A DNA stretch of 21,959 nt from a virus, in the IMG/VR virus record IMGVR_UViG_3300035183_001479, positions 1 through 21,959 of that record; one strand, 5' to 3'. Both the position numbers and the translations under genes were made by a program. The notes under the pieces are model-generated. The model was given only the letters and a program-made list of their open reading frames with translations, searched no databases and was not told the DNA's origin. This document shows, piece by piece, positions 2,926-21,565 of the stretch; the first letter of the stretch is position 1, and each line of letters opens with the position of its first letter.

Positions 2926-2974
2926 TTTCGTATAAAAGAATAACGGATATTATGCTTTTGTATTGGAAAATTTT

Positions 2975-3618: not shown

Positions 3619-3794
3619 GGCGAATCTTTATAGCGAATATTTTGGCGAATAGCGAATAGATCAGCGAATGGCGAATGGCGAATGGCGAATAGAAAAATAC
3701 CATTCGCTATTCGCTATTCGCTATTCGCCAGTTTATTCGCCATTCGCTGATCTATATTCGCCAATAGATTCGTCATTCGCTATAGAGATTCGCC
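3619..3794 (+). repeat. Heptamer inverted-repeat array A, between decoration and capsid genes
   Basis: The 200-base gap 3602-3801 is almost entirely filled by GCGAATA/GCGAATG heptamers on the left and their complements (ATTCGCC/ATTCGCT) on the right. The two halves face each other around the loop AGAAAAATACC (3691-3701). The outermost 20 bases (3619-3638 and 3775-3794) are complementary with one mismatch. A second block (GCGAATAGATCAGCGAAT on the left, ATTCGCTGATCTATATTCGC on the right) also pairs. The transcript could fold into one hairpin spanning the gap. The capsid ATG is 8 bases past the array. No other gene is supported here: the open frames through it are translations of the heptamers. 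Confidence 0.9.
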
Positions 3795-3801
3795 AGATTA
3801 T

Positions 3802-5076
3802 ATGTCTGGTATTAACTGGCAACGTTTGGCGGAAGATCCTATCTTTCGTCCTAATAGAATTCAAGCTATTATTGATGAAATGCCGCCTAATAACGATATC
3901 CTAAAGGCAACATCCGCTTTTATGCCTAGAAAGGATATTGATGATATTACGGTAATGACAACTATTATGTCTGGACCTTTTGGTATGACCTCCCCTTTGG
4001 GAGATCTAGGGTCCCAACATAATTATATTTCGGGTCCCCGTCTGGTCCAGTATGAGCATTCTGTAGCCCATTGGAGAGAAGCGGTAAAATTAGATGAAAA
4101 AACTTTGCTTCGTCTTCAATATGCCTTACTTGCTGGAAATAGAAACCTGCTAGAAGAACATATCACTAAAGTCCTTAGAATGCTCGATATCCGTGTGGAT
4201 AATAGAATTGAACATTCTACCTTAAGTACTATTCTTACAGGATCTTATACCGTTAATGAATTCGGAGTAAATTATACCTATACCCCTGTAAATCTAAAAC
4301 CTTACCTAACCGTAGATGTTACAGCCTCCCCGCCCTGGACTTCGGCAGGAGCTTGGTCCGCTTTGAACACTGCAGACCCCTTAACAGACGTTCGTGAATT
4401 TAGAAATTACCTTTCTAAATATGGACTTTCTGTTACTCGTATCTGGATGACTTTAAAGGTTGCAGGCTATCTGGAGGATAACGCAAAAATCAGAGATTTT
4501 ATAAAAAATACCCCCTCTGCTCCACAATTCATCTCTGTGAATAACATCTTCCAGTTAGTTGAAGGATTTAAGGGGCTCGAACCTGTTGTAGATGATAGGC
4601 GATTTGTTGATGAATATAGGATTTTTCAAGCCGTATCCTCTGGAGCTACCCAGGTTTTCTTCGATAATATAGATAGAATTAAAGTTGGGGATGATATGAT
4701 CCTAGAAAATGCTACCGGTCAAAGCGAACGTGTGGTAGTCAGTGCCATAAATGCCAGTTTGAGAAGAATTACCTTCTCCTCTGCTCTTCAATTTAGCTAT
4801 TCTGTGGGAGATTTTGCTAAGGTTTATCGAAGATTTTTTGATGATGATACGAGAGTTATCTTTGAATGTTCTTTCCCAGATGGATCCGATACGGCTAATT
4901 GGGTCAGTGTCCCCTCTCTTGCCTCAGCAACGGATATTAACAATCCAAAACCTGGAAAAACTCCATGGAGAACTTTCGTAACTGATAGAAATCCTAAATA
5001 TATAGAACTGGGAAATGGTATTTCAGGAGGCCCTGTTATCCATAGACAAGCCTGGGGAATACTGAAAATAGCGTAA
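3802..5076 (+). CDS. Major capsid protein, lambda gpE-like, with inserted beta domain
   Basis: 424 residues. The N-terminal half has the features of the phage major capsid protein E family: an N-terminal helix region, then PRKDIDDITVMTTIMSGPFG, the segment RLVQYEHSVAHWREAVKLDEKTLLRLQ, and a helical stretch with DIRVDNRIEHSTLSTILTGSYTV. The C-terminal part has RVIFECSFP, a long loop region, and P-WRTFVTDRNPKYIELGNGISGGPVIHRQAWGILKI, resembling the closing strands where these proteins describe metal- or loop-rich ends. Residues 277-342 (QAVSSGATQVFF...KVGDDMILENATGQSERVVVSAI...GDFAKVYRRF) look like an inserted beta domain probably exposed on the capsid surface. Position after the protease and decoration genes and before the connector genes supports the assignment. 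The gene is bracketed by arrays A and B. No Shine-Dalgarno is visible before the ATG. Confidence 0.85.
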   Translation: MSGINWQRLAEDPIFRPNRIQAIIDEMPPNNDILKATSAFMPRKDIDDITVMTTIMSGPFGMTSPLGDLGSQHNYISGPRLVQYEHSVAHWREAVKLDEKTLLRLQYALLAGNRNLLEEHITKVLRMLDIRVDNRIEHSTLSTILTGSYTVNEFGVNYTYTPVNLKPYLTVDVTASPPWTSAGAWSALNTADPLTDVREFRNYLSKYGLSVTRIWMTLKVAGYLEDNAKIRDFIKNTPSAPQFISVNNIFQLVEGFKGLEPVVDDRRFVDEYRIFQAVSSGATQVFFDNIDRIKVGDDMILENATGQSERVVVSAINASLRRITFSSALQFSYSVGDFAKVYRRFFDDDTRVIFECSFPDGSDTANWVSVPSLASATDINNPKPGKTPWRTFVTDRNPKYIELGNGISGGPVIHRQAWGILKIA

Positions 5077-5084
5077 TCTCTTTT

Positions 5085-5240
5085 GGCGAATAAACTGGCG
5101 AATGGCAATAGATCAGCGAATGGCGAATAAACTGGCGAATAGCGAATAGCGAATAGCGAATGGTATTTTTCTATTCGCCATTCGCCATTCGCCATTCGCT
5201 GATCTATATTCGCCAATAGATTCGCTATTCGCCATTCGTT
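5085..5240 (+). repeat. Heptamer inverted-repeat array B (loop inverted), after the capsid gene
   Basis: It fills most of the 171-base gap 5077-5247. The left side is GCGAAT heptamers and the right side ATTCGC heptamers, as in the other arrays, but the loop reads GGTATTTTTCT (5162-5172), the reverse complement of the loop in arrays A, C and D. The GATCAGCGAAT block occurs on the left (5111-5121) and its complement CGCTGATC on the right. The following gene begins with a TTG 7 bases beyond the array. No gene of its own is supported. Confidence 0.9.
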
Positions 5241-5247
5241 ATAAAAA

Positions 5248-5685
5248 TTGGCTTTATATTTTATAGACGACATTTTAGATCTTTTACTATTATCCAATAG
5301 AAATGTAAAGCTTGGGAATCCCTTTGGAAATCCTCCTACCGGAAATATTAACCTAGACATGATTCAGCGGGCCCAAGATAGAAGTGTAGCTTGGGTAGAG
5401 GAAATCCTAGGGTATACGCTTGAAGAATCGGAAAAATCTAGATTAAAACTCGTTATTATTTATAAAACTGTTGCGGAAATTCTAACATCTATTCCTACCC
5501 TTCAGGAAGATAAAGTGGGATCCATATGGTTAAGGGCTGCTAAAGATCTCCTTGAAAATTTTAGGTCCTCTTCTATGATCACGGCAGGCTCTATACTTAC
5601 AGAACAAAAAGAAAAGTCTTTTAGTCGCCCTTCCCCATTTCCTAAATATCAAACGGATAGTTTTATTAAAAACTTTAAAATATAA
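5248..5685 (+). CDS. Head-tail connector (head completion) candidate, TTG start
   Basis: 145 residues if translation starts at TTG 5248. An in-frame TAA lies at 5242, so no earlier start exists in this frame. The next in-frame ATG (5359) would give 108 residues beginning MIQRAQDRSVAW. The middle is helical (INLDMIQRAQDRSVAWVEEILGYTLEESEKSRLKLVIIYKTVAEIL), similar in style to small gp6-type connector proteins, with a serine- and proline-rich C-terminal tail. The place right after the major capsid gene and before the gpG/S-like completion gene is where such proteins occur; in other phages they form a ring on the portal. Function is inferred mainly from position. The 5' end is uncertain because array B abuts it. 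Confidence 0.6.
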   Translation: MALYFIDDILDLLLLSNRNVKLGNPFGNPPTGNINLDMIQRAQDRSVAWVEEILGYTLEESEKSRLKLVIIYKTVAEILTSIPTLQEDKVGSIWLRAAKDLLENFRSSSMITAGSILTEQKEKSFSRPSPFPKYQTDSFIKNFKI

Positions 5686-5691
5686 AAAATT

Positions 5692-6213: not shown

Positions 6214-6219
6214 ATCATT

Positions 6220-6723: not shown

Positions 6724-6732
6724 CATATCCAA

Positions 6733-6767
6733 GTAGAAACAGACCTACTAGATAGATCTGTTCCTAC
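6733..6767 (+). other. Possible stem-loop between terminator and tail tube genes
   Basis: GTAGAAACAGA (6733-6743) faces TCTGTTCCTAC (6757-6767), giving an 11-base stem with one mismatch and a 13-base loop. It is not followed by a run of T, so it is not a typical intrinsic terminator. It lies in the 63-base gap before the tail tube gene. The significance is uncertain. Confidence 0.3.
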
Positions 6768-6786
6768 ATAAGTATGTTAAAGGTTT

Positions 6787-8115
6787 ATGCCAAGCACTGG
6801 ATATTGGTTAGAGGATTCTTCAAAGGCTGCTATAAAATTAATCCCTTCTACAAATCCCTATGGAAAAGGAACCGATGTTAATGTAGCGGGGGCACTCTTT
6901 CGATTTATTCCTGGAGGGTTTGCGCCTTCTTACAATCTGGTTAAAATAAGAAATACAGAAATAACGGGTACTCTGGGAACTAAAACCATGGAAAGTGGTT
7001 CCAGAGGCGTTACCCTACCCGTAAAATCTTATCTTCATTATCAAGATGACGCCATTGAAACCATTATTGCAACAGCTATGGGACAAAGTACGGCCCCAGC
7101 TCTGATAACAGGAAGTACTTATAGATATGTTTTTCAAGTAAAGCAAATTATAGATAGGTTTTTTAGTGCCGCAATTCAGGGAGGTATTACGGATTCGGTT
7201 TATAATCCCAATGGAATATTTTATTACCCAACCTTGATCCCCAATCAGGTTACCATCGAGGGCACCATGGATGAATTCGTAACGGTGTCTGCGGATCTGG
7301 TGGGATGGGATGAACTTATTCCGTTGGGAACCACTATTAATAAAGTTGGTGGGATTACCGCTACAGATACAACCATAACGGTTACTTCCACAGCAGGTTT
7401 TAATAATAGTGGATTCCTTTTATTGAACCGAGCGGGTACGGCTGAAATTGTTTTCTATAGAGGATTGGATGGAACAAATTTTTATAATGTAGTTCGTGGA
7501 TTATTAGGAACCACAGCAGCAGCTCACGCTAATGGGGTTACTGTGGAAACGCTTTGTTATACAACTGCTAATTTGAATAGTGCAACACCTATAAACTCTC
7601 CTATAGCCTCTTTTGACGATGTAAAGTTCTTTATTAGTGACGCAAGTGCTGGAGCCTTTACAGGATCAGATATTATACCTATAAAACATTTTGTGTTCCA
7701 GATTCAAAATAATTTAAAATATGATCCTGATACTGGAACGTTTGGACGCTTTAGTCAACCTAAAAGAACTAGTTTCCAAGCCACTCTCTCTGTAGACGAA
7801 GTTACCTATAGAGAGATGGTTCATAGATTCAGATACATAGACAATGCAAGATTAAAAGCTAAAATTGAAATGACGTCGTCCACCTTTACGGCTTTAGCAG
7901 ATGCAAAGACTTATCAATGTAACATTTGGTTGCCTGCTATTCAGTATTCTGGAGACAATCCGGCTTCTGGTATGTTTGGTAGTGGACTTCCTGAAGTGAC
8001 CCATAGCTTTGAATGTACGGTAAGTACTAGTATACCTACAGGGTTCCCCTCTGAAACAACCAGTATCGGTATCATAGAATTCGTTAATTTGCGAAGTACT
8101 AATCTTATAACATAA
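6787..8115 (+). CDS. Major tail tube protein with inserted beta domain
   Basis: 442 residues, longer than simple tube proteins because of added domains. The N-terminus (GYWLEDSSKAAIKLIPSTNP...FIPGGFAPSYNLVKIRNTEITGTLGTKTMESGSRGVTLPVKSYL) is the 'x-x-E-x-x-x-G-x-x-x-x-x-x-G...S-G-x-x-L-P' style of phage tube proteins, followed by NQVTIEGTMDEFVTVSADLVGW, a common strand pair of the fold. Residues 187-256 are an inserted repeat-type beta domain (TATDTTITVTSTAGFNNSG...GLLGTTAAAHANGVTVE), a motif found in many phage virion proteins. The C-terminal third continues with HFVFQIQNNLKYDP...FSQPKRTSFQATLSVDE and a closing FECTVS. Position before the chaperone pair and tape measure gene fits a tube protein. 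A weak AAAGG lies 3 bases before ATG. It is followed by array C. Confidence 0.8.
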   Translation: MPSTGYWLEDSSKAAIKLIPSTNPYGKGTDVNVAGALFRFIPGGFAPSYNLVKIRNTEITGTLGTKTMESGSRGVTLPVKSYLHYQDDAIETIIATAMGQSTAPALITGSTYRYVFQVKQIIDRFFSAAIQGGITDSVYNPNGIFYYPTLIPNQVTIEGTMDEFVTVSADLVGWDELIPLGTTINKVGGITATDTTITVTSTAGFNNSGFLLLNRAGTAEIVFYRGLDGTNFYNVVRGLLGTTAAAHANGVTVETLCYTTANLNSATPINSPIASFDDVKFFISDASAGAFTGSDIIPIKHFVFQIQNNLKYDPDTGTFGRFSQPKRTSFQATLSVDEVTYREMVHRFRYIDNARLKAKIEMTSSTFTALADAKTYQCNIWLPAIQYSGDNPASGMFGSGLPEVTHSFECTVSTSIPTGFPSETTSIGIIEFVNLRSTNLIT

Positions 8116-8317
8116 GCGGATTAATTGGCGAATATTTTTTAGCGAATAGCGAATAAACTGGCGAATAGCGAATAGCGAATATAGATCAGCGAATGGCGAA
8201 TGGCGAATGGCGAATAGAAAAATACCATTCGCTATTCGCTATTCGCTATTCGCCAATAGATTCGCCATTCGCCATTCGCTAAGAGATTCGCTAAGAGATT
8301 CGCTAAGAGATCCGCTT
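8114..8317 (+). repeat. Heptamer inverted-repeat array C, after the tail tube gene
   Basis: This fills the 217-base gap 8116-8332. The outer arms AAGCGGAT (8114-8121) and ATCCGCTT (8310-8317) are exact complements; the left one overlaps the tail tube stop. Inside are GCGAAT heptamers on the left, the loop AGAAAAATACC (8216-8226), and ATTCGC heptamers on the right. The right side ends in three 12-base units AAGAGATTCGCT (8281-8316, last one with ATCCGCT). The whole region can fold as one long hairpin. The next ATG follows 15 bases after the right arm. No gene of its own is supported. Confidence 0.9.
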
Positions 8318-8332
8318 AAAAACGCTTAAAAA

Positions 8333-8722
8333 ATGGGATATTTAACTATTATTTCAGAAAAGATAAAAAAACCTGTAAAATTTGAAGATAGTGTTATTTA
8401 CATACGTCCTGTAGGGGTTGTAAAGCATCAGGAGTTTGTAAAACAGGCGACTAAACGGGAACGTTCACGGGATGGTTGGGTAGAAACTAGAGATAATGAT
8501 CTTCTTTTTCAGTTGGTAATAGACTATATGATTGTGGATTGGGAAAATGTGAAGGATCCTGTAACGGGAGAAAACGTTCCCTGCACAAAAGAAAATAAAT
8601 TAATGCTTCCTGATACGGTCCTCTCTGACCTTATGAATCAGGCTAGCGTACCAGGTTTTACCCACACCAATGGACATCAACCTGGATTTCAAGATGAACT
8701 AAAAAACTCCTTTACTTCGTAG
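8333..8722 (+). CDS. Tail assembly chaperone, first frame (lambda gpG analogue)
   Basis: 129 residues from ATG 8333 to TAG 8720-8722. The N-terminus is FEDSVIYIRPVGVVKHQEFV, then a helical middle with LLFQLVIDYMIVDWENVKDPVTGENVPCTKENKLMLPDTVLSDLM. The 'W-x-x-V-x-D-x-x-T/G-x-x-V-P-x-T-x-E-N' stretch is frequent in tail chaperones of siphoviruses. The gene lies between tail tube and tape measure genes, where lambda G lies. An A AAA AAC heptamer close to its stop would let a fraction of ribosomes slip back one base and continue in the second frame. In lambda, gpG and gpGT bind the tape measure protein and recruit tube subunits, and both disappear from the finished tail. Which part binds which partner here is unknown. 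Confidence 0.75.
   Translation: MGYLTIISEKIKKPVKFEDSVIYIRPVGVVKHQEFVKQATKRERSRDGWVETRDNDLLFQLVIDYMIVDWENVKDPVTGENVPCTKENKLMLPDTVLSDLMNQASVPGFTHTNGHQPGFQDELKNSFTS
8701..8707 (+). promoter_or_regulatory. Slippery heptamer A AAA AAC for -1 frameshifting
   Basis: In the chaperone frame the codons are CTA AAA AAC TCC, so bases 8701-8707 form X XXY YYZ in the right register. The zero frame ends 13 bases later at TAG 8720. Downstream, GCAGTT (8727-8732) can pair with AACTGC (8749-8754), and ACC (8735-8737) with GGT (8743-8745), making a weak hairpin about 19 bases past the heptamer. That is farther than usual, so its stimulating role is uncertain. The position matches the conserved frameshift in siphovirus tail chaperone genes. 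Confidence 0.75.
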
Positions 8723-9072
8723 AACAGCAGTTCGACCGCCCAGGTTTAAACTGCGATAATTGTAGAGCTAAGGAACGTGCAAGTGAACATTTCGTTCCTT
8801 TATGCGAAAGACCTGGTAATACTAGAGAAAGCTGCCCCTACGTAGAACTGTGGAGTGTTAATCAAAAGGTCTATGAGTTCTATGAGGACCTCCAAAGTTT
8901 CGGGGGAGAAGTTGCCTTAGAATTCCTAAGTCACGAACCTATGACCCCTGAAGAATTCTATTATTTCAAATTAAAACTGAGAGCTTTGCATCACAAAATC
9001 CTGGAATTGAAAAATAAGCAAAAAGCTCAATCTAAAAAAAAGCGAATAACGAGCGAAGAATTTAGCGAATAG
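8707..9072 (+). CDS. Tail assembly chaperone, frameshift extension (lambda gpT analogue)
   Basis: The frame one base back from the chaperone gene is open from 8698 (after a TGA at 8695) to TAG 9070-9072. It has no ATG until 8941, so it is best read as an extension reached by -1 slippage at 8701-8707. Decoding after the slip gives LLYFVEQQFDRPGLNCDNC and so on, 121 residues added to 125 from the first frame, about 246 in total. The extension has four cysteines as C-x2-C-x13-C-x9-C (CDNC...LCERPG...SCPYVELW), suggestive of a zinc or iron-sulfur site, then a helical, lysine-rich end (KLKLRALHHKILELKNKQKAQ). The last codons (KKRITSEEFSE) contain GCGAAT heptamer-like DNA. The tape measure ATG is 7 bases after the stop. 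This follows the lambda G/T order exactly. Confidence 0.72.
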   Translation, partial: LLYFVEQQFDRPGLNCDNCRAKERASEHFVPLCERPGNTRESCPYVELWSVNQKVYEFYEDLQSFGGEVALEFLSHEPMTPEEFYYFKLKLRALHHKILELKNKQKAQSKKKRITSEEFSE

Positions 9073-9079
9073 CTAAAAT

Positions 9080-12000
9080 ATGCCAACTTCTTCAACTTCC
9101 CATGTTCTGGTCTTAAAAGTTGATGCTTCGTCCGCAGTTCAGGGATTTTCTGCCTTCCAAAGCCAGTATGAAAAGGTCTTAAATGATTCGGTAGCTTTAA
9201 CTTCTAAAGCTACAGCCCTTATGACCCAAGCCTGGAATAGTTTCTCCAATTCCTTTAATTCCGTGGCTAATAATATAAACCAGGCCGCTAGTTCCGCCCA
9301 AAAATCAGTGTCCTCCATATCTTTGGCTTTTTCTGATAGTTCTAAAACCGTGGATTCTATGTCCAGCTCTTTAAATAAATTGGTCACTGGTTTTAATGAG
9401 GTGGGTAAGGCCGCAGAAAAACTTTCTGACTCTACCAAGGAAGTAAATACTCAAGTAGGTGAAACCCAAACGAATCTCTTTGGATTAAGTCGTCCTTTTA
9501 TTTCCATTACAGGATTGGCTAGGGCCCTTTCTTCGGTACTAACGTTCGAGCTTGCTTTCTACGGTCTTCAAGCTGTGAAAGATGCTTTGAAAGATACTGT
9601 TAAGCTTTTCGTGGAATTCCAAGATGCCCTTGTAAATGTCAGAAGAAACGCAGATCTCACAGCAGAACAAACCTTGGTTGTGGCTAAGGCTTTGGATAAT
9701 CTATCTAAAGAAATCCCAATGTCAGCGGTTCAATTGGCTAATATAGCTAGTGTAGCTGGACAACTCGGAATCCAAGGGGTCGAAAATATCCTTACCTTTA
9801 CCGAAAGTATCGCTAAAATAAGCGTGGCCTTAGATCTGTCAGAAGAACAAACGGCAGTGTCCATGGCTAGAATGCTGAATCTCTTCTCCCTTGGAACAGA
9901 TAAGGTCATGGAACTTGGAAATGTCTTTAATGAATTAGCAAGACAAAGTACCGCTACCTCTAAAGAACTTATTGAAATGACAGAACGTATGGGAGGTACT
10001 GCGGCAGCTCTGGGATTAACTGCCGGAGAAACAGTAGCTTTGGCTGCAGCTTTAAGAGATGCTGGGGGTGGAGTAGAGGTTTCTACCACAGCCATGATTC
10101 AACTGATGACTAAGTTGATCTCTAAAATTGGAGATGTGGCCATTGCTTTTGACCTAAATGCCACAGAGTTAGCCTTGGCTATGAAAACTCAACCCATCCA
10201 GGCTATTAAACTCGTGCTGGATAAAGCTAATGAACTCGCCAAGGCTCAAGGCCCCTCAGCTTTGACCTCAGCCCTCTCACAACTCGGTCTCGAAGGAGTT
10301 CGGGTCGAAGAAACTTTTATAAAACTAGTTTCCCAGTCTGAAAAACTCGATTTCTTCCTCAAAGAACAAGCACAAGCTATCGCAGAAAATAACTCTGTCA
10401 ATAAAGAATTTGCTATTGTAAATGAAAATTTATCTAAAAAATATGAACTTTTGAAAAATGAAATGCAAAGCTTTGCTAGAACTATAGGGGCTGAAGCGTC
10501 TCCTGTGATTTCGAAGGCAATGGAGTATTTGACTAACGGCTTTGAAGCCTTAAATGTGGCTGCAGAATTCTGGTTTGGAAAAAAATCTGAGGACGTCTTC
10601 GCACCTTTAACTTCTAGCGTGGATGATTTGAATAAAGTTCAAGCGGAAATTGCTGAAATTCAGAAAAAAATAAAAGACCTTAACAATGAATTTAGATCCA
10701 AACAAGAGGCTCAAGTTTATTGGAACACATACTTCCCTGAGAGTTTTGAAAATATCCCAGGGACTATTGAAAGTTATAAAAATGCTCTTCGGGAGTTAAA
10801 TGAACGCTTATTTGACTTAAAACAAAAAGAAAGAGAACTTACCCAAGCCTTAAAAGATAAGGCTAATGCAACTAATGAAGTTCTTAAACTAGATGCCCAA
10901 TCCTTAGCTGATGCCTCTAACCTTAATAAAGCTTATTTAGCACTCGTACGTTATGTAGATCAGTATAATAAGAAAATACAAGAACTTAGATCCCATCCAG
11001 AAGTATATGAAATTACTACACAAGCCGTATCCACTCTGGTAGGAGACTATCAAAAACTTCTTAGTATAACCGTCTTAAATGTAGATCAAGCTAAAAATCT
11101 GTCTGGAACTGCGGATGATTTAAATCAGATTTTGTCGTCTCTCGATGTGAAAATTACAGATATCAACGCTGCTTTAAATAATGAAGCTGTAAGAAAGGCC
11201 GCTTTGGCCTTGAGAAACGAAGATTTACTGAAAACTTATAACGCCTTAAGTTCCAGTGTCAATGATTATATAAAAGCTTCAAAAGATGAACTTAAATCGG
11301 AAGCTCAAAATGATGCCATTAGGAATAGAGTTAAAGAAATGTTGGGGATCTTAAAAAGTTTATATGACACTGGAGCCATTAGTTTAAATAAATATACCTC
11401 AGAGCAAAAAAGACTCGAAGACGCCCTAAAGAATCTTGAAGGCATAAAATCCAAAGATAAAACTCTAACAGAACAATTACTAGATATTACAAGAAAATAT
11501 AATATCGTAACTGGAGCTGATGCGGTAGAAGCTCTTAAAAAATATCAAGAGGCTTTAGAGCTTGCCAGTCGGTTACGTGATCAGAATGTTGTAAGTCAGG
11601 AATCTCTCAATAAAATTACTTCACAAGGAGCTAGAGAACTTGCAGAATTGGCTCTGAAAGGATCCGAAGAAGTTGAACTGCTAATACGCCAAGCCTTGGC
11701 GGTTTCTTCTAACACAGAAGCCCTAAAAGCTTTTAATGACGCCCTAATAAACCTTAAAATAGAAAACCTGTCCAAAGCCTTTGGGATTATACTCTACGCT
11801 TCAGTTGATAAAGCTATAGAGGATTATAATAAAAACTTGGCTCGTGCAGCTGAATTACTCAAAAGCGGCCTAATTACTCAAAATGAGTACAATCAGATGT
11901 TAGAGCAAGGGGCAGGGGTTATTTCAGATCTTGCTTTAAAACAGGCTTTTTCTACTGAAGCAGCTATACGTGATGCCCAAGCCCATGATGAAGGGGCTAT

Positions 12001-15000
12001 GGCTTGGAAGCGATATATATCAGAGGTAGATTCCTATAGAGTTTCCCAGCAACAAGCTATAGATCTGGCCAAAACCTACGGCATAGTTTTAGAAGCAGAA
12101 GTTACAAAGGCTCTAGATCAGTATCAAAGCCAGTTGAAGCAAGCTGAAATAGCTGTATCTAAAGGTACTATAAGTTTAGAGGAGTACAATAAAATAGTAG
12201 GAGCCGCCTCTTCTGTTTTGGCGGATCTTGCTTTAAAACAGGCTTTTTCTACTGAAGCAGCTATACGTGATGCCCAAGCCCATGATGAAGGGGCTATGGC
12301 TTGGAAGCGATATATATCAGAGGTAGATTCCTATAGAGTTTCCCAGCAACAAGCTATAGATCTGGCCAAAACCTACGGCATAGTTTTAGAAGCAGAAGTT
12401 ACAAAGGCTCTAGATCAGTATCAAAGCCAGTTGAAGCAAGCTGAAATAGCTGTATCTAAAGGTACTATAAGTTTAGAGGAGTACAATAGAATAGTAGGAG
12501 CCGCCTCTTCTGTTTTGGCGGATCTTGCTTTAAAACATTCTTTTGTAACCGGGGAAGCTTTGAAAGAAGCCCAGGCCCATGATGAAGGGGCTATGGCTTT
12601 GAGGCGGTACATGTCTGCAGCTCTAGAATCTAAGAGACTTCAAGATGAAGCGATAGACTTGGCTAAAAAATATGGGGTAGTGACCTCGGATTTATTGAAC
12701 AAAGCTTTAAGTAATTATTCAGATGTAGAAGCTAGAGCTAATATGCTCAGGGAAAAAGGCGTTTTATCCTATGAAGAATATAACAAAATAGTAAGAAGTG
12801 CTGCAGATGAGGTTGCAGATCTTGCCTTAAAGCAAGCTTTTGGTACTGAGGCGGCTATAAAGGAAGCTCAAGCCCATGACGAAGGGACTTTGGCTTTAAA
12901 GCGATACTATGGATCCTATGATAATCTTGTTAAAACTAAGGAAAAACATCGAGCACGGGAAAAAACAGATACCGAGCAACTTATAGAGCTTACCAAGAAA
13001 TATGAAATTGTCACAGGAGCCGATGCGGTAGAAGCTCTAAAAAAATACCAAAAGGCCCTGACTTTATCGGATACGCTCCTAAGTAAAAACATATTGAGTC
13101 AAGAGGAGGCTAATAAAGTCGCAGAGGCAGGAGCTAGAGAACTCGCAGAATTAGCAGAGAAAGGATCTTCAAATATTGAAGCTCTTATAACTAATGCTTT
13201 AGCTGTTTCCTCTAATACTTCTGCTTTAGAAGCTTTCAATAAGGCTTTACAGAATCTCAAAATAGAAAAACTCAAAGATGCTTTTGATGTTACGTTTTCC
13301 TCTGAAGTTAACAAGGCTATAGAGGATTATAATAAGAACTTATCCCGTGCTTCTGAATTACTCAAAAGCGGTGCGATTACTCAGAATGAGTACAATCAGG
13401 TGGTGGATCAAGGAGCTTCTAAAATTTCAGATCTTGCTTTAAAACAGGCTTTTTCTACTGAAGCAGCTATACGTGATGCCCAAGCCCATGATGAAGGGAC
13501 TATGGCTTTAGAGCGGTACATTGCTTCAATCACTAAATTGGCATTACATCAAAAAGAAGCAGAAGAACTCGCAAGTGCTTATGGGGTTGTTTTGGAATCT
13601 CAAGTAATTAAAGCCCTTAAAGAATATGAAGAATTATCTGCTAGAGCTTCTCTATTGTTACAGGAAGGTATTATAAGTCAGGATGTTTACAATAAAATTA
13701 TTACAGAAGCTGCAGATAATGTATCAAATCTTGCCTTAAAACAAGCCTTTGGTTCTGAGGAGGCAATAAAGGCCGCTCTAGCTCATGATGAAGGGGCTAT
13801 GGCTTTGAAGCGGTTAAATTCCGCAACCACAGATCTTACTTCTACCTTGGAGAAACTTCCAGGAACGTTTGCTTCGGTACGAGCTTCTGTACAAAATCAA
13901 ATCGATGGAATTAATGAACTTATTTATGTTTTAAAGACCGGTAAGATCGGATTTTTAGAATTCGGGGCTTCTATTATTCAACTTGGATCCTCCTTACTTC
14001 AAAGTTCAGGATTATTGGATCTTTTTGGCAGTAAAGTGGGCCGAGTGGTTTCGGATGTCAGTAGTATCACCAGTGGGGTTATAGGGGCAGGAGCTGCTTT
14101 TACCAGGTTTATATCCGGGGATATCGTAGGTGGGGTTATTCAGGGAGTTAGTGCTATAGGAGATTTGGTTAAGGGTTTTGGGGATTTCTTTTCTGGACTT
14201 TTCGGTGGAACTTCTGAAGGTAAGAAAGAATGGGAAAAGCTTCAAGATGCGGTAAGATCCCTTTCTCCTGATCTGCAGGAGAGTGTACGGCTCATGAGTC
14301 CAGTAAGGGATGAAGTCCGAGCCATGGGGTCTGATTTTGAAAAATATTTAGGAAGTCTTACCTTCGATGATCTCCTAGGGGGTATAGATGCCGTCGGAAC
14401 AAGAATTAATTCGCTTCCTCCTGTAATGGATAGGGTTGCAGAAGCTATATCAAAATTAACTGGCGTGTCCATGAAAAAGGCTAGGGAGGATGTTATCTTC
14501 TTAACTGGGGCTATCGAAGAGCAAGGAGGTAGTATTACCGATCTTATTTCGGCATATTCAGATTGGATATCTGAAGCTGAGGATGTATCTAAAGCCACTG
14601 CTAAATTGCAAATAGCCCAAACCATGCTGGCTAGGTCTGTACATTTGACGCAAGAACAATTCAATGAGTTGTTTCAAACCATGACCCAAGCAAATGAGGT
14701 AGAAGCCGCCATGGATGATTTAGCAACTGCTTTTGACATCTTTTCTGATGGAGTCTTGGATAGTGAAAAAGAACTCGATAAGTTGACTCAAATTATCGAT
14801 AATCTGGTGGCTCGTGGAACGATAAGTACCGACATGGCTGCGCAACTGACCGAAGCTTTTACAGCTCTGGCTACCGGAACCCAATTAACTTCTGATCAGT
14901 TGGTTACTGTAAAACAGTTGTTCGATTTACTTTCCAGTGAAACAGAAGCCTTGGATGGAAGCATAAGTACCCTTGGAAATACCATGAGAGTTGTGGGAGG

Positions 15001-17899
15001 ATCTGCTCAAAGTCTTTCTGGAGGAATGCAGGCCCTTTCTTTAAATTTTGCAAATACCACAAATGTGGCTTCTAGTTTTAATTCAACACTAAATGAAACC
15101 ACAACGGCTTCTGCTAATTTGGAAGATACCTTGGTAGGCCATTCTCTGGTACCGGCTCTTCTAGAACTTTCTGCTGTTTTGGTCTATGCCCACAGATCTA
15201 CCCTAGATTTGTCTTTAGGGATGCAGGCCCTTTCTTCAAATTTTGAAGGTGCAAGCCTTGAAGCTAAGAGTCTGACTTCAGCATTAAATGAAGCAGTTAC
15301 GTCATCTCTTGCTTTAGAAGATACCTTGGTAGGTCATTCTCTTGTGCCGGCTTTAGATAATTTAACTATCGCGCTGGATAACTCAAAGACGGCATTAACC
15401 CTTTATAATAATGCCATGGCCAATGCCGCAACAACTTCTTCTAAATTAGAAGCAGCTCTGGGTCCTGCCTTGGGGGTCAGTGAGGCGCCAACTTATACCT
15501 TCAGTGCAGCCCCAAAAGAAACTGTAGATCTTACCCTAAGATCCACTTCAAGACAAGTCGATCTTCTATCTTCTCAGGCAGTTAATACGGTTGATTTGCT
15601 AAATCAAAAGACTGAGGACGCTTCTAAAAGTATAAATCTTTTAAATTCAGCTACATCAAATTTAATAGATTTAACTGGGGATTTAGTCCTGGGAACTTCA
15701 GAGTACAATACCCAACTCGATGAGTTAAACACAAATCTCTCCAAGACACGGGAGCAACACCAAAAATATACCAGTGATTTAGATACCTTAAAGTCCCAAA
15801 TATCCCTTACACAAGATCAAATTTCATCAACACAAAAAGCCCTTGATTTTTATTCTAAGAGAATTTCAAGCCTAGAATCTCAAATACGAAATTTAACAGA
15901 TTTATATACCTCTGGTTCCATGAATGTGGTGGATTATCAGAGGAATTTAAGTAGATTAACCGATGAATTGAATGCCGCTAAGGCTTCTTATGATTTAAAT
16001 AACTCGAGTTTAGAGGACTTGAATAAGCAATTAGAAGATCTCACTTCTGCTTATGATGAGACTAAATCTAAGGTAGAATCTGTATCTTCTGAGATAGGCA
16101 ATTTAAGTGGTCAGATTGAGGATTTAAATAAGAAATATCAAGATAGTTCCAATTTAGTGAAAAGTCTAGGGCTTGTCACAAGGAGTCAATATCTTAAGGC
16201 GCAAGACAATCAAAGAAGGTCCCTGGAATTACTTTTAGATCTTTATGAGCGTGGTGAAATTTCATTAGGTCAGTATCAGGAGGCGGTAGACACTTTAAAT
16301 AAATCTTTAGAGGCATTAAAAGAAGAAACCGATGATCAGCAACGGGCCATAAGGGATGCGACAGAGACCCTATCAGCTTTAGGACTTACAACATCCAAGG
16401 ATGTATCTAAGGCTTACGATAATTTAATTTCAAGTCAGGAGGATCTTAAGGTAGCTTTAGATTCTGGGCTTATTACGTTAGACCAGTATAATGAAGGGTT
16501 ACAGATCTTACAAGAATCTTATGATGAAGTTGCAAAGTCTGTAGATGTGGTAGCAAGGAAACGTGAGGCGTCTATATCTTCTTTAAAAGAGGAATTAGGG
16601 CTTATAACTGCTGAGGATTTATCTAAAGCAGCATCTTCTTTGGCTGATAAGCAGGCGTTACTTTTGGATCTTTATAATGAAGGACAAATTACGCTTGCCC
16701 AGTATAACAATTCTATAAAGACCCTTCAAGACAGTTATAATGAGTTGGCATTATCTGTTTTTAAAGATAGCCATGAAGAGGAGAAGCGGGCGGTAGCTTC
16801 AGAATTGGGGCTTACGACAACTCAAGATTTAATAGAAGCTCAGGTAGAATATCAAAGGAAATTAGCGCTTGTTCAAGAGCTTTTACAAGCTGGAGAGATT
16901 ACGCAAATAGAATATAACAATGCGGTAGATGCGTTAAATGAGAGTTTGAATGATTTGTTCTTATCTATGAATCAGAGTGATAGACAACAAAGGAGATATG
17001 AAACTGCCCAGAAGCTAGGGATTACAACTCAAAGGGATTTACTCGAGGCCCAGGAGGAAATGAACCGAGAGATAGCTGATTTAGATGAGCTATTACGTCA
17101 GGGGGAGATTACTCAAGCTCAGCATGATGCAGGGGTTAAGCAACTAAGGGATTCTTATGAGGAATTAGTTCAAAGTACCAATGATGTAGCCCGAGCTTTT
17201 CAATCTGCCCAAGAAACTGCCCAAGCCCTTGGGATTGTAACGGCTGATGAATTATCTCAGGCGACGGCCGATGCTGCGGATAAACTTGGGGATTTAAATC
17301 TGTTATTGGTGTCTGGTCAAATTACCCAGGCTCAATATGAGATGGGGGTGCAAAGTTTAAGTAATTCCCTTACGGACCTTTATAATAATACCGCAGGGGT
17401 CGTAGTTTCAACCGATGAATTATCTTCTTCTTTAGATACCAGTAGCAGCTCTGTGGTTGAGATGTCCTCAGCCACCATAGAGTTAAATACCACTTTGGAT
17501 CAAACCAATGATTTGTTTGTGGAAGCAACTAGCAACTCCTTGATGTTAACTAAAGCTATAGCTGGTTTGGTGGAACAGGTTATAAATCTTGGTTTTTATG
17601 GGTCTCTTTTACCTGGGATGGGGAAGACTTTGGGTGGGACTTCCATACCTGGGAGGGCTTCTGGGGGTCCTGTGAGAAGTAATAGAGCTTATATTGTTGG
17701 GGAAGAAGGTCCTGAATTATTTATTCCAAAATCTGATGGGTATATAGTCCGTTCTGGAGCTGTAAAGACTGAGGTGTCCAATGAATCTATAAATATAAAT
17801 ATTTTTGCAGATGTGATAGATCAACAAGCCGTGGACCGATTTGTGGCTAAATTAGAGAGGAAATTAAAGAATCGAGCAAATTTAAGGGTGATTTCTTAA
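9080..17899 (+). CDS. Tape measure protein, very long and repeat-rich
   Basis: 2,939 residues. It spans the tail lumen, sets tail length and is probably released at infection. Residues 1-160 are serine/alanine-rich helices. Residues 176-425 match the TP901-1-type phage tail tape measure domain (FVEFQDALVNVRRNADLT...LANIASVAGQLGI...ATSKELIEMTERMGGTAAALGL...AALRDAGGGVEVSTTAMIQLM). Residues about 800-1580 hold 94- and 99-residue helical repeats (DLALKQAFSTEAAI...HDEGAMA). Residues 1630-1715 are a hydrophobic glycine-rich stretch, a candidate membrane-inserting segment. Residues 1975-2095 hold a 65-residue repeat with EDTLVGHSLVPAL. Residues 2230-2360 are coiled coil, and 2363-2775 hold six 70-72-residue repeats. 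The end (RASGGPV at 2859, then YIVGEEGPELFIP) is a classic tape measure C-terminus. At about 0.15 nm per residue the tail would be near 440 nm. No lytic enzyme domain is recognised. Confidence 0.95.
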   Translation: MPTSSTSHVLVLKVDASSAVQGFSAFQSQYEKVLNDSVALTSKATALMTQAWNSFSNSFNSVANNINQAASSAQKSVSSISLAFSDSSKTVDSMSSSLNKLVTGFNEVGKAAEKLSDSTKEVNTQVGETQTNLFGLSRPFISITGLARALSSVLTFELAFYGLQAVKDALKDTVKLFVEFQDALVNVRRNADLTAEQTLVVAKALDNLSKEIPMSAVQLANIASVAGQLGIQGVENILTFTESIAKISVALDLSEEQTAVSMARMLNLFSLGTDKVMELGNVFNELARQSTATSKELIEMTERMGGTAAALGLTAGETVALAAALRDAGGGVEVSTTAMIQLMTKLISKIGDVAIAFDLNATELALAMKTQPIQAIKLVLDKANELAKAQGPSALTSALSQLGLEGVRVEETFIKLVSQSEKLDFFLKEQAQAIAENNSVNKEFAIVNENLSKKYELLKNEMQSFARTIGAEASPVISKAMEYLTNGFEALNVAAEFWFGKKSEDVFAPLTSSVDDLNKVQAEIAEIQKKIKDLNNEFRSKQEAQVYWNTYFPESFENIPGTIESYKNALRELNERLFDLKQKERELTQALKDKANATNEVLKLDAQSLADASNLNKAYLALVRYVDQYNKKIQELRSHPEVYEITTQAVSTLVGDYQKLLSITVLNVDQAKNLSGTADDLNQILSSLDVKITDINAALNNEAVRKAALALRNEDLLKTYNALSSSVNDYIKASKDELKSEAQNDAIRNRVKEMLGILKSLYDTGAISLNKYTSEQKRLEDALKNLEGIKSKDKTLTEQLLDITRKYNIVTGADAVEALKKYQEALELASRLRDQNVVSQESLNKITSQGARELAELALKGSEEVELLIRQALAVSSNTEALKAFNDALINLKIENLSKAFGIILYASVDKAIEDYNKNLARAAELLKSGLITQNEYNQMLEQGAGVISDLALKQAFSTEAAIRDAQAHDEGAMAWKRYISEVDSYRVSQQQAIDLAKTYGIVLEAEVTKALDQYQSQLKQAEIAVSKGTISLEEYNKIVGAASSVLADLALKQAFSTEAAIRDAQAHDEGAMAWKRYISEVDSYRVSQQQAIDLAKTYGIVLEAEVTKALDQYQSQLKQAEIAVSKGTISLEEYNRIVGAASSVLADLALKHSFVTGEALKEAQAHDEGAMALRRYMSAALESKRLQDEAIDLAKKYGVVTSDLLNKALSNYSDVEARANMLREKGVLSYEEYNKIVRSAADEVADLALKQAFGTEAAIKEAQAHDEGTLALKRYYGSYDNLVKTKEKHRAREKTDTEQLIELTKKYEIVTGADAVEALKKYQKALTLSDTLLSKNILSQEEANKVAEAGARELAELAEKGSSNIEALITNALAVSSNTSALEAFNKALQNLKIEKLKDAFDVTFSSEVNKAIEDYNKNLSRASELLKSGAITQNEYNQVVDQGASKISDLALKQAFSTEAAIRDAQAHDEGTMALERYIASITKLALHQKEAEELASAYGVVLESQVIKALKEYEELSARASLLLQEGIISQDVYNKIITEAADNVSNLALKQAFGSEEAIKAALAHDEGAMALKRLNSATTDLTSTLEKLPGTFASVRASVQNQIDGINELIYVLKTGKIGFLEFGASIIQLGSSLLQSSGLLDLFGSKVGRVVSDVSSITSGVIGAGAAFTRFISGDIVGGVIQGVSAIGDLVKGFGDFFSGLFGGTSEGKKEWEKLQDAVRSLSPDLQESVRLMSPVRDEVRAMGSDFEKYLGSLTFDDLLGGIDAVGTRINSLPPVMDRVAEAISKLTGVSMKKAREDVIFLTGAIEEQGGSITDLISAYSDWISEAEDVSKATAKLQIAQTMLARSVHLTQEQFNELFQTMTQANEVEAAMDDLATAFDIFSDGVLDSEKELDKLTQIIDNLVARGTISTDMAAQLTEAFTALATGTQLTSDQLVTVKQLFDLLSSETEALDGSISTLGNTMRVVGGSAQSLSGGMQALSLNFANTTNVASSFNSTLNETTTASANLEDTLVGHSLVPALLELSAVLVYAHRSTLDLSLGMQALSSNFEGASLEAKSLTSALNEAVTSSLALEDTLVGHSLVPALDNLTIALDNSKTALTLYNNAMANAATTSSKLEAALGPALGVSEAPTYTFSAAPKETVDLTLRSTSRQVDLLSSQAVNTVDLLNQKTEDASKSINLLNSATSNLIDLTGDLVLGTSEYNTQLDELNTNLSKTREQHQKYTSDLDTLKSQISLTQDQISSTQKALDFYSKRISSLESQIRNLTDLYTSGSMNVVDYQRNLSRLTDELNAAKASYDLNNSSLEDLNKQLEDLTSAYDETKSKVESVSSEIGNLSGQIEDLNKKYQDSSNLVKSLGLVTRSQYLKAQDNQRRSLELLLDLYERGEISLGQYQEAVDTLNKSLEALKEETDDQQRAIRDATETLSALGLTTSKDVSKAYDNLISSQEDLKVALDSGLITLDQYNEGLQILQESYDEVAKSVDVVARKREASISSLKEELGLITAEDLSKAASSLADKQALLLDLYNEGQITLAQYNNSIKTLQDSYNELALSVFKDSHEEEKRAVASELGLTTTQDLIEAQVEYQRKLALVQELLQAGEITQIEYNNAVDALNESLNDLFLSMNQSDRQQRRYETAQKLGITTQRDLLEAQEEMNREIADLDELLRQGEITQAQHDAGVKQLRDSYEELVQSTNDVARAFQSAQETAQALGIVTADELSQATADAADKLGDLNLLLVSGQITQAQYEMGVQSLSNSLTDLYNNTAGVVVSTDELSSSLDTSSSSVVEMSSATIELNTTLDQTNDLFVEATSNSLMLTKAIAGLVEQVINLGFYGSLLPGMGKTLGGTSIPGRASGGPVRSNRAYIVGEEGPELFIPKSDGYIVRSGAVKTEVSNESININIFADVIDQQAVDRFVAKLERKLKNRANLRVIS
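11645..13829 (+). repeat. 94/99-residue helical repeat array in the tape measure gene
   Basis: Units open with (D/E/N)LA(L/E)K: at 11645 (diverged, 94 residues), 11927, 12224, 12521, 12818, 13148 (diverged, 94 residues), 13430 and 13727. The spacing is 297 bases between true neighbours and 282 after each diverged unit. The diverged units and the segments before them (TEQLLDITRKYNIVTGADAV near 11470 and TEQLIELTKKYEIVTGADAV near 12968) recur at a 1,503-base (501-residue) distance, so larger blocks were also duplicated. All periods are multiples of three. Confidence 0.88.
11927..12520 (+). repeat. Nearly identical 297-bp tandem duplication in the tape measure gene
   Basis: Bases 11927-12223 and 12224-12520 are the same except A12192 versus G12489, which changes a lysine to arginine (YNKIVG versus YNRIVG). 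Identity runs on about 17 bases into the third unit before it diverges. This encodes residues 950-1048 and 1049-1147. Such identity next to diverged relatives points to a recent in-frame tandem duplication. Confidence 0.92.
15122..15357 (+). repeat. 65-residue repeat with EDTLVGHSLVPAL in the tape measure gene
   Basis: GAAGATACCTTGGTAGG occurs at 15122 and again at 15317, 195 bases apart. Each copy continues with a near-identical stretch encoding EDTLVGHSLVPAL. Each is preceded by GMQALS(L/S)NF and LNE(T/A)(T/V)T, so a whole 65-residue segment has been duplicated and then diverged. Confidence 0.75.
16166..17400 (+). repeat. Six 70-72-residue repeats near the tape measure C-terminus
   Basis: Units begin LG(L/I)xT at 16166, 16379, 16595, 16805, 17015 and 17228. 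The consensus is LGLTTxxDLxxAxxxxxxxL, then LxxGEITxxQYNxxVxxLxxSYxEL. The DNA copies are clearly diverged. The same 'G-I-V...A...G-x-I-(T/S)-x-x-(Q/E)-Y' pattern is found in the 99-residue repeats, so both arrays probably derive from one ancestral helical hairpin. Confidence 0.8.
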
Positions 17900-17902
17900 A
17901 AA

Positions 17903-19078: not shown

Positions 19079-19088
19079 TCTCTAGATT

Positions 19089-19604
19089 ATGTTTCCGCGA
19101 TCCAAGGATTTTATAGATTTAGCAAACAAGAAGGTTCCTCCTTCTGTTTTGGTTTATATAGTCACTGCCACGGGAATTAGGGTTTACGGGTATAGATATC
19201 CTTCAGATAAGGACATAGGTAATATTAAGAGTGTAAGACTTTATGATGGATCTATAAAATTTGATGGAACCAATTTTTATGGGTTTGGAACTGAAAATAT
19301 TTTAGAAAGAGATGGAGAGGTTTTATCTATAGGAATTTGGACAGAGAATTTAGTGCCTGAAACTGGACAATTATTATCTTCACTAAGGCAAACAGAGTTG
19401 AGTAGTACTACCATTGTTTTGAACAATGCAGATAGGAGTATTTCAAAGATTCTTTCAAAAGATCCCTGGTTAGGAGCTGAGGTCATTATTAAGGTAGGGT
19501 TTAAAGATTTGGCAAATGCGGATTATATAACCAGGGCTAGAGGTTTAATAGATCAAATTACCCTTAGAAGTACTGAAGTTCAATTGCGGGTAGTTGGCAT
19601 TTAG
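19089..19604 (+). CDS. Tail hub protein, N-terminal part
   Basis: 171 residues from ATG 19089 to TAG 19602-19604. It starts with short helices (FPRSKDFIDLANKKVPPSVLVYIVTATGIRVYGYR), then a beta-rich domain (SVRLYDGSIKFDGT..., TTIVLNNADRSIS, WLGAEVIIKVGFKDL...YITRARGLIDQITLRSTEVQLRVVGI). The style 'L-x-N-x-D-x-x-(L/I)-S...G-x-x-V-x-(I/V)-x-x-G...x-G-x-I-x-x-I' is that of the first domain of phage tail hub proteins, which sit below the distal tail protein. The protein stops where related hubs usually continue. The next gene starts one base after this stop (TAG T ATG) in another frame, so the two probably act together. Confidence 0.55.
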   Translation: MFPRSKDFIDLANKKVPPSVLVYIVTATGIRVYGYRYPSDKDIGNIKSVRLYDGSIKFDGTNFYGFGTENILERDGEVLSIGIWTENLVPETGQLLSSLRQTELSSTTIVLNNADRSISKILSKDPWLGAEVIIKVGFKDLANADYITRARGLIDQITLRSTEVQLRVVGI

Positions 19605-19605
19605 T

Positions 19606-20814
19606 ATGGGATTAAAAATCTATGATTTATATATACTTAGAAAATCTTTTTATTATCCTAGGGCGCAAAATACCTTTGATCCCTTACCAATAGTTTATGG
19701 GGATATGAGTCTAAGGGGGAAGGGGGGTTTATGGAAATGTCCTTATATAGATACCACCAATTTCATTTATATGATTGCAGATCACTCTGTACTATCTACT
19801 GCAAATGGGAATGTTTTTATTGTTTATAAAGATGGGGTACAGGTTACTTCTGGTTATACTATTACTTCATCTGGAAGTGATGCGATAGCTGGAGGATCTG
19901 GGAAGACCATTTCTTATATTCAGTTTAGTACAGATCAGGGTTTATCTGAAATAACTGTTAGGTGTAAAGGAAAGAATTCCGGAGCCACATTGATCGAGAA
20001 TCCTATATCTATCTTGGAGGATTTTCTTTACACCGTAGGATATACCGTTTCTGATATAGATACCTCTAGATTGGAGAGAGCAAGAACTGTAGCTTCGGAT
20101 CTTGGATATAAAGCGGCTGGGGTAATAAATAAAGATGCCTCTGTAAGTTCTTGGTTAAACGAAATTTTGCTATGTTTTCTTGGAGATTTTTGGGTAAATC
20201 AAGAAGGTAAGATTGTAATAACTCTGGATGTTCCTGGGGAAAGCAAATATAACATAGCTGGGGTGATATCTGAGAGATATCTTTCTCCTGATGTAGAAGC
20301 CTATCAGGATTTAAGTAATTTATGTAATCAGGTAGATATAGATTACTCTTATAATTTTTCTCAAGATAAATTCGAGGATAATGATCCTGGGGATACAGGT
20401 AAGGATATTTTAAGTCAGAATTCTTTTGGGATTTATAAAAGGAAGTTTCAATTTAAGTGGATAAGATCTAGTACTGTAATCAATACCGTTAAGAACCGTA
20501 TTATTACTAGGTTTTCTAATCCTGTATGGATCGTAACTTGTAGCGAGAATTCTTTAAGAAATGTACATGTAGAGAGGGGGGATTGGGTATTATTTAGTTG
20601 GGATGGATTGATGGATAAGGAGCAGTTACCCTTAGTAAATCAAATATTTAGAGTTATGGAGGTTTCTCCAGATTTGGATAATAGTTCAGTTAAATTTACT
20701 TTAATAGATGAAGGGGTTTACTGGACAAGATCCGACAGATTTTTTGATGGGAGCTTCACCTATAATGGATCGATACTTTATGGTGGAGAGCGTGAAAGGA
20801 GGGCTTTGTATTAA
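19606..20814 (+). CDS. Tail hub protein, central and C-terminal part
   Basis: 402 residues from ATG 19606; a TTG at 19594 in the same frame is a less likely start and an in-frame TAG at 19591 blocks anything further upstream. The opening (YPRAQNTFDPLPIVYGDM) matches the 'Y-P-x-A...G-x-x-x-P-I-x-Y-G' joint common within tail hub proteins. Then come a beta domain (VFIVYKDGVQVTSGYTIT), a helical stretch (NPISILEDFLYTVGY...ASDLGYKAAGVINKDASVSSWLNEILLCFLGDFWVNQEGKIVI) and a C-terminal beta part (VERGDWVLFSWDGL...FRVMEVSPDLDNSSVKFTLIDE). These are typical of hub proteins that close the tail tube, so the role is tail tip assembly and probably cell-wall engagement. It abuts the next gene (stop TAA then ATG). 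Confidence 0.6.
   Translation: MGLKIYDLYILRKSFYYPRAQNTFDPLPIVYGDMSLRGKGGLWKCPYIDTTNFIYMIADHSVLSTANGNVFIVYKDGVQVTSGYTITSSGSDAIAGGSGKTISYIQFSTDQGLSEITVRCKGKNSGATLIENPISILEDFLYTVGYTVSDIDTSRLERARTVASDLGYKAAGVINKDASVSSWLNEILLCFLGDFWVNQEGKIVITLDVPGESKYNIAGVISERYLSPDVEAYQDLSNLCNQVDIDYSYNFSQDKFEDNDPGDTGKDILSQNSFGIYKRKFQFKWIRSSTVINTVKNRIITRFSNPVWIVTCSENSLRNVHVERGDWVLFSWDGLMDKEQLPLVNQIFRVMEVSPDLDNSSVKFTLIDEGVYWTRSDRFFDGSFTYNGSILYGGERERRALY
20795..20803 (+). promoter_or_regulatory. Strong ribosome binding site AAAGGAGGG for the C1q-like gene
   Basis: AAAGGAGGG lies within the last codons of the hub gene, 11 bases before ATG 20815. This is the best Shine-Dalgarno match in the window and is unusual for a region where most starts have none. 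It may raise output of the receptor-binding candidate relative to the hub. The spacing is slightly long. Confidence 0.55.
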
Positions 20815-21405
20815 ATGCCAGCGCCTAGTTGGATTCAATATTCTGAGGAAGTTGTAGCGGAGGGTCATCCTACCAAAGCTGATGTAGCCAATCGACCTGC
20901 TAAAACCATATGGACCAATTTCACCCAACAACATGATATAAATGGGCTTCACTTACTAAATTGGACGTTACCTTGTGTTTTTGTAAAAAGTTCTGTGAAT
21001 CAAAGTATTGCGAATGGTGTAAATACTACTTTAAGTTTCGATCTTGAAGACTACGATACTGACAATTTACATAGTACGACCACTAACAATTCAAGAATAA
21101 CCATAAGTCGTGCAGGGCTTTGGCTTTTTTTTGCAACGGTTGTTTTTGCAAGTAATAGTACAGGATTTCGTACCGTATATTTAGGTATAAATGGTGGAGG
21201 TTCTATAGGGGTAACTAGAGTTACAGTAAATGCAGTGAGTGGGATTGAAACTTATGTATGTGCTGCGGGTATGAAGAATCTTAGTGTGAATGATTATGTA
21301 GAAGTTATAGTTTCTCAAAATAGCGGGGCTGCTTTGAATGTACTATCAGGATTAGCCGGTATTAATACCCATTTTGGTGCGATATATATCGGTCGGAATA
21401 ACTAA
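20815..21405 (+). CDS. Receptor-binding / fibre-tip candidate with C1q-like domain
   Basis: 196 residues, ATG directly after the hub stop. The N-terminus (EEVVAEGHPTKADVANRPAKTIWTNFTQQHD) is the 'G-H-P-x-x-x-D-V-x-N-R-P' attachment segment seen in phage tip proteins. Residues 52-196 match the C1q/TNF-like jelly roll found in phage head and tail fibres: VFVKSSVNQSIANGVNTTLSFD, YDTDNLH, NNSRITISRAGLWLFFATVVFASNSTGFRTVYLGING, LSVNDYVEVIVSQNSGAALNVLSG, FGAIYIG. Such domains are usually trimeric and sit at fibre ends, so cell-surface binding is likely. Which receptor cannot be told. The gene closes the tail-tip block, has a strong ribosome binding site and is followed by array D. Confidence 0.72.
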   Translation: MPAPSWIQYSEEVVAEGHPTKADVANRPAKTIWTNFTQQHDINGLHLLNWTLPCVFVKSSVNQSIANGVNTTLSFDLEDYDTDNLHSTTTNNSRITISRAGLWLFFATVVFASNSTGFRTVYLGINGGGSIGVTRVTVNAVSGIETYVCAAGMKNLSVNDYVEVIVSQNSGAALNVLSGLAGINTHFGAIYIGRNN

Positions 21406-21406
21406 T

Positions 21407-21565
21407 GGCGAATAATCTGGCGAATAGCGAATAGCGAATATAGATCAGCGAATGGCGAATGGCGAATAGAAAAATACCATTCGCTATTCGCTATTCGCTA
21501 TTCGCCAATAGATTCGCTATTCGCTATTCGCTATTCGCCAATAGATTCGCCATTTGCCATTCGCT
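21407..21565 (+). repeat. Heptamer inverted-repeat array D, after the C1q-like gene
   Basis: This fills the 167-base gap 21406-21572, starting immediately after the stop codon. The left half is GCGAAT heptamers with the block ATAGATCAGCGAATGGCGAAT, the loop is AGAAAAATACC (21468-21478), and the right half has longer runs of ATTCGC heptamers with two ATTCGCCAATAGATTCGC spacers. The loop orientation is as in A and C. One forward frame stays open from an ATG at 21459 through the array into the next gene, adding 38 heptamer-derived residues; that extension is probably not translated. Confidence 0.9.

Follow-up and report, generated by a model that had tools for sequence, protein, structure and literature searches.

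Inverted heptamer arrays at virion-gene junctions of a siphovirus-type contig: a REP-like repeat possibly kept as mRNA punctuation

Hairpins and short repeats located between genes are found in several described systems. The polycistronic mRNAs of phage T7 contain intercistronic RNase III processing hairpins and 3' stem-loops, which set the ends and the stability of the RNA, with a terminator following the capsid gene, and the STRR sequences of cyanobacteria are intergenic repeats of a seven-base unit. A heptamer repeat of sequence TAACTGA, described in marine Beggiatoaceae, is likewise intergenic and consists of direct copies without predicted structure (PMC4679880). Repetitive extragenic palindromes (REP/BIME) are built from units of about 14–40 nt (PMC12306157), carry a foot of sequence GTAG or CGTC (PMC3733652) and are represented in Bradyrhizobium by Br-REP1/2 (PMC5082802); they are transcribed with their flanking genes and roles in mRNA stability and termination have been proposed. 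In the gene-transfer-agent (GTA) cluster of Caulobacter (CcGTA), three GC-rich repeats of 150 bp, which include inverted repeats, act as transcription terminators that can be read through with the help of GafZ (PMC11150451).

The window analysed in this study comprises a viral record in its whole length of 21,959 bases (39% G+C), with a morphogenesis operon of siphovirus type, in which profile matches identify a head protease, a head or decoration-like gene, the major capsid protein, neck, tail tube and chaperone genes, a tape measure protein of 2939 residues, distal tail genes and a fibre-like gene. Non-coding DNA amounts to 4.4% of this contig and contains all four arrays, A to D, described here. 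The relevant features, with predicted minimum free energies (MFE, kcal/mol), are:

2963–3601, plus strand: head/decoration-like gene, 5' of array A (phrog_909 major head protein, weak match, E 0.003)
3619–3794, plus strand: array A, inverted heptamers in the gap that separates the head (decoration-like) gene from the major capsid gene (MFE -105.8, z -14.3; 27-bp uninterrupted helix)
3691–3701, plus strand: conserved 11-base loop AGAAAAATACC of array A; also at 8216–8226 (C), 21468–21478 (D) and, inverted, at 5162–5172 (B)
3802–5076, plus strand: gene of the major capsid protein, flanked by arrays A and B (phrog_29, E 1.4e-15; Phage_cap_E, E 8e-9)
5085–5240, minus strand: array B, the element of A inverted, directly 3' of the major capsid gene (100-nt exact inverse of A; MFE -82.9, z -9.7)
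6787–8115, plus strand: tail tube gene, 5' of array C (Phage_tube_2, E 8.5e-7)
8114–8317, plus strand: array C, 3' of the tail tube gene and 5' of the tail chaperone gene (MFE -108.1, z -11.9)
8333–8722, plus strand: tail assembly chaperone gene, 3' of array C, with a -1 frameshift extension to about 9067 (phrog_313, E 9e-5; reading frames)
20815–21405, plus strand: fibre-like virion structural gene, 5' of array D (phrog_13989 virion structural protein, E 1.2e-14)
21407–21565, plus strand: array D, 3' of the fibre-like structural gene (MFE -89.2, z -11.5)

That four arrays assembled from common parts occupy these positions had been claimed in a first-pass annotation and is confirmed by our analysis. 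GCGAATN units on the left and NATTCGC units on the right surround the fixed loop AGAAAAATACC, which in B is present as its reverse complement, and a GATCAGCGAAT block is found in each case. The tandem-heptamer pattern GCGAATNGCGAAT matches 37 times in the contig, compared to 0.01 matches expected from shuffled sequences, and single GCGAAT or ATTCGC hexamers outside the arrays number only four. Each array, with a length of 156–204 nt, fills the space from the stop codon of one virion gene to the start codon of the next. The gene names proposed in the same annotation hold for the capsid, tail tube and fibre-like structural genes, whereas the term decoration is backed only by the weak match to a head protein. 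Its statement that all other junctions are tight and that only the four arrays occupy gaps above about 165 bases is correct for most of the operon, where junctions without arrays do not exceed 63 nt, but two further long gaps exist (602–792 and 8723–9079). The latter, of 357 nt, contains a frame shifted by -1 that stays open to about 9067, and the slippery sequence A AAA AAC at 8701–8707 is canonical, so that a programmed frameshift of the G/GT-type would account for the apparent gap behind the chaperone gene. This frameshifted reading frame is closed by two GCGAAT units (9042–9071), the second overlapping the TAG stop (GCGAATAGC) about 9 nt 5' of the tape measure start; the pair could be a relic or the seed of a fifth array. 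The other gap, 602–792, is part of the left end of the contig outside the operon core, a highly repetitive region (1–792) with 117-nt tandem repeats and a 30-nt repeat present three times at 679–779. Internal repeats of 297 nt (99 residues) are also found in the tape measure gene (9080–17899) at 11.6–13.8 kb, where two adjacent copies are 98% identical in DNA and thus reflect a recent duplication.

The four arrays are copies of one element rather than four independent microsatellites, since A (3656–3755) and B (5108–5207) are identical in inverted orientation over exactly 100 nt. B and C share 97% identity over 98 nt, several near-identical copies being also a characteristic of MITEs; all four agree in loop, inner heptamers and GATCAGCGAAT block and differ in their outer arms. 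A flanking direct repeat of 4–9 bp, as expected for a target-site duplication, is absent at A to C and limited to a chance-level AATA at D.

In their general properties the arrays resemble REPs: all four are extragenic and form predicted stem-loops, they are palindromic, present in near-identical copies and located near the 3' ends of genes. They differ in that 156–204 nt of tandem heptamers take the place of a 14–40-nt palindrome and in their location in a phage late operon. A GTAG foot is contained in no array and CGTC occurs once, inside A. Among intergenic palindromic repeats we regard the arrays as a new variant, and not as REPs sensu stricto. The 22-kb fragment, which holds only the morphogenesis region of the genome, contains four copies, and among its genes with profile matches no transposase of the TnpA-REP/RAYT type is recognised. 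With TAACTGA and STRR repeats the arrays share the seven-base unit, the intergenic location and a scattered occurrence over distant phyla, but those are direct repeats, whereas in all four arrays inverted arms surround a fixed loop to form one long hairpin. Similar to the CcGTA repeats, which control expression, they combine inverted repeats with a phage-type morphogenesis operon, but the CcGTA elements lie behind the first gene as direct repeats of 150 bp, are GC-rich and have been shown to terminate transcription, and the arrays are heptamer hairpins known from sequence at four junctions. The intercistronic hairpins of T7, finally, are short and non-repetitive compared to the long repetitive arrays described here.

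On the transcribed strand, the arrays are predicted to fold with energies of -83 to -108 kcal/mol and z-scores between -10 and -14 relative to dinucleotide shuffles (-14.3, -9.7, -11.9 and -11.5 for A to D), a comparison that the first-pass annotation had proposed. In a ranking of the 200-nt windows of the contig by stability, arrays take all of the first ten places. The predicted folds contain uninterrupted helices of 20–27 bp, long enough for RNase III sites, which are characterized by unbroken double-stranded RNA of roughly two turns or more. An intrinsic terminator, defined by a GC-rich hairpin and a U-tract, can be dismissed at all four arrays, as none is followed by a U-tract, and the suggestion that the hairpins set 3' ends is, with respect to intrinsic termination, not borne out. 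Transcription can thus run on into the genes for capsid and tail, and unless there are promoters that escaped notice, the genes behind the arrays depend on read-through for their expression. The base of the hairpin in array A is located only 12 nt 5' of the capsid ATG, where, in uncleaved RNA, it could impede the loading of ribosomes; since cleavage would free the capsid start, this proximity is more in keeping with processing than with a static hairpin. The sense and antisense strands are nearly alike in predicted folding, and folding alone can thus not separate a function in RNA from one in DNA. The spacers of the inner heptamers form G-U pairs in A, C and D and A-C mismatches in the inverted B, and an excess of G-U over A-C in the spacer pairs of tandem bacterial arrays (16 vs 10) is not significant, for which reason we dropped this bias as a sign of RNA selection. 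Taken together with the equal folding of both strands, these features do not make a sequence case for selection at the level of RNA. Weak matches to miRNA families in an Rfam search were far below gathering thresholds and were rejected as low-complexity hairpin matches.

The first-pass annotation had also considered a mobile or host-derived repeat and a search for its core in related phages and hosts. We found no relative of the phage, either by tblastn with three proteins against 50,697 phage records or by scans of IMG/VR for four proteins as well as for the array pattern and loop sequence, in which near-identical records may be omitted; a 17-mer containing the loop matched 49 contigs, none with arrays, which we take as chance. 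In contrast, the array architecture, defined as GCGAATNGCGAAT-(4-30)-ATTCGCNATTCGC, is present in 18 other viral contigs of IMG/VR, several of which are GTA clusters of Alphaproteobacteria, and in at least 119 stretches of bacterial genomes, mostly of Bradyrhizobium, other Rhizobiales and Anaerolineales. The array type is not unique to this phage, and the host-repeat reading gains from its occurrence in spacers of unrelated bacteria. Individual genomes contain up to 51 copies (one Anaerolineales, many with identical loops), 13 copies (one Xanthobacteraceae) and 12 copies (a candidate-phylum genome), with zero matches of reversed-pattern controls in these counts. In this candidate-phylum genome (G495), larger palindromes with ends resembling terminal inverted repeats (TIR) enclose several cores that have an A-tract loop, an arrangement that suggests mobility. 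Heptamer hairpins within larger palindromes, with ends similar to CATCGTTTCGGCCATTTA and TAAATGGCCGAAACGATG, were seen at loci L198 and L204–L210 of the candidate-phylum genomes G494 and G495, where they form a MITE-like composite element. Bacterial arrays are intergenic in 125 of 143 placed cases, in DNA of which about 89% is coding and about 11% non-coding, and in tandem gene pairs the core follows the upstream stop by a median of 16 nt and precedes the next start by 30 nt; a depletion between divergent genes is not significant (p 0.11). The GCGAATN/NATTCGC pair was not encountered as a printed repeat in the literature searched, where the single text match was to a paper on Bacillus thuringiensis.

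With respect to the host, a Shine-Dalgarno sequence is found near only about two of 16 gene starts between 793 and 21959, which suggests a host with SD-independent initiation. Bacteroidota, considered on this basis, were set aside because the array is present in only one of 395 genomes, the seed itself. The candidate phylum of G003 and G495 was considered in light of a similar A-tract loop and likewise set aside, as a capsid search there yielded only E 0.007.

The GTA clusters offer an independently gathered set of phage-type operons, with 80 loci collected by their capsid protein and not by the array and with gene starts placed by tblastn. In two of the array-bearing viral contigs of GTA type (L011 and L023), arrays are located directly 3' of the capsid gene (phrog_10, E 3e-73) and 5' of the major tail gene (phrog_1407). 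Irrespective of its sequence, the spacer between capsid and adaptor genes measures at least 50 nt in 63 of 69 loci, compared to 9/39, 5/37, 27/53, 12/52 and 7/39 at other junctions, although some of the largest gaps may conceal small genes or wrong starts; the difference in length is reflected in Mann-Whitney p-values of 1e-8 or smaller, which overstate independence as the loci are related. The 63 long spacers fall into about 39 sequence groups without mutual similarity, for whose representatives the folding z has a median of -4.2 and is below -3 in 24 of 39, whereas spacers of at least 50 nt before the major tail gene have a median of -0.2. Their hairpins are of different kinds: three spacers contain GCGAAT heptamers, L213 has heptamers of the GAGTAGT type, and other GC-rich palindromes occur in further spacers. 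Since the position is kept while the sequence is replaced across groups, this comparison suggests that selection favours a hairpin 3' of the capsid gene, in partial support of the earlier suggestion of mRNA punctuation at abundant virion genes, for which selectively long, hairpin-forming spacers of unrelated sequence in 69 clusters provide the evidence. A general enrichment of heptamer arrays in GTA clusters was considered and dropped, with arrays in only 4 of 42 tabulated loci; what is enriched is a hairpin of any sequence after the capsid gene. The spacer at 7700–7800 of L041 also contains a different heptamer series of the ACTTTCC/ACTGTCC-type, hinting that a 7-base periodicity is general to such spacers.

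We tentatively favour, at somewhat less than even confidence, a REP-like repeat that was dispersed by copying and has been kept at virion-gene junctions as mRNA punctuation. Its strongest rival, a realistic if less probable explanation, is a selfish or neutral repeat of host type that is copied by recombination, by template switching or by a transposase not seen here, and persists only in gene gaps, without benefit to the phage. Such an element would be at home in the spacers of unrelated bacteria, with its high copy numbers and identical loops, and in the larger palindromes of the candidate-phylum genome; both insertion orientations are present, and gene disruption alone predicts a location restricted to gaps. 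However, target duplications are absent from the flanks of A to D, and tolerance alone does not predict the preference of GTA clusters for hairpins, unrelated in sequence, at the capsid 3' junction, which far exceeds that at neighbouring junctions. A role as conditional terminators of the late operon, passed with the help of a phage antiterminator, has a precedent in GafZ-mediated read-through of the CcGTA repeats (PMC11150451) and would suit large hairpins between late genes, but it is improbable in light of the missing U-tracts, the succession of four such elements, with the capsid gene immediately flanked by one on each side, and the recognised genes of the window, which are structural and include no antiterminator.

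The near-palindromic DNA, with strands of nearly equal folding, and the exact 100-nt inverted repeats of A and B on either side of the capsid gene are features also expected of a cruciform or protein site for packaging, replication or recombination, which could for example invert the capsid segment flanked by A and B. An element acting in DNA is nevertheless very improbable, as the arrays are always placed exactly between stop and start codons, vary in heptamer number and outer arms and are accompanied by no recognised recombinase in the window, while the GTA parallels keep the hairpin and differ in sequence. Whole-genome amplification is known to create spurious inverted repeats and the contig is a single one from a metagenome, yet an origin in assembly or amplification is hardly credible for four copies with different flanks and arm lengths between intact genes, and for an architecture found in many independent assemblies.

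The reading as a repeat and that as punctuation are compatible and both are partly supported. The latter draws on the extreme stability of the hairpins, their restriction to gaps next to structural genes, their intergenic location in bacteria and the parallel in GTA clusters. A specific association with virion genes is in part a matter of ascertainment because the contig holds the morphogenesis region only. In the proposed mechanism, a single REP-like intergenic hairpin element of GCGAATN heptamers would have been dispersed as four copies, each of which would fold in the late polycistronic mRNA into a hairpin with helices of 20–27 bp and no U-tract. Transcribed as part of this mRNA, the hairpins may act as barriers to 3' exonucleases, as RNase III cleavage sites or as both, and would thereby separate and stabilise the decoration, capsid, tail-tube and fibre messages, with the outcome that these genes would be expressed at higher levels than, or differently from, their neighbours.

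Collectively, the arrays look like a bacterial intergenic repeat that was taken up by a virus and that probably serves to punctuate the mRNAs of the most abundant particle proteins. In a broader and more speculative view, which we consider rather unlikely to hold in full, capsid 3' ends in phage-type morphogenesis operons would repeatedly recruit host repetitive hairpins as mRNA punctuation, with the present arrays as an instance that also takes in the decoration, tail-tube and fibre genes, and with the GCGAATN array as a hairpin repeat family that crosses phyla and counts phages and GTAs among its carriers. It is a standing question how phages and GTAs without internal promoters obtain hundreds of capsid subunits and few of their neighbours from a single late transcript. 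The recurrence of a hairpin spacer directly 3' of the capsid gene, made up of unrelated repeats in different lineages, offers a simple and testable hypothesis, which, if true, would assign a selective role to intergenic repeats that are usually treated as junk.
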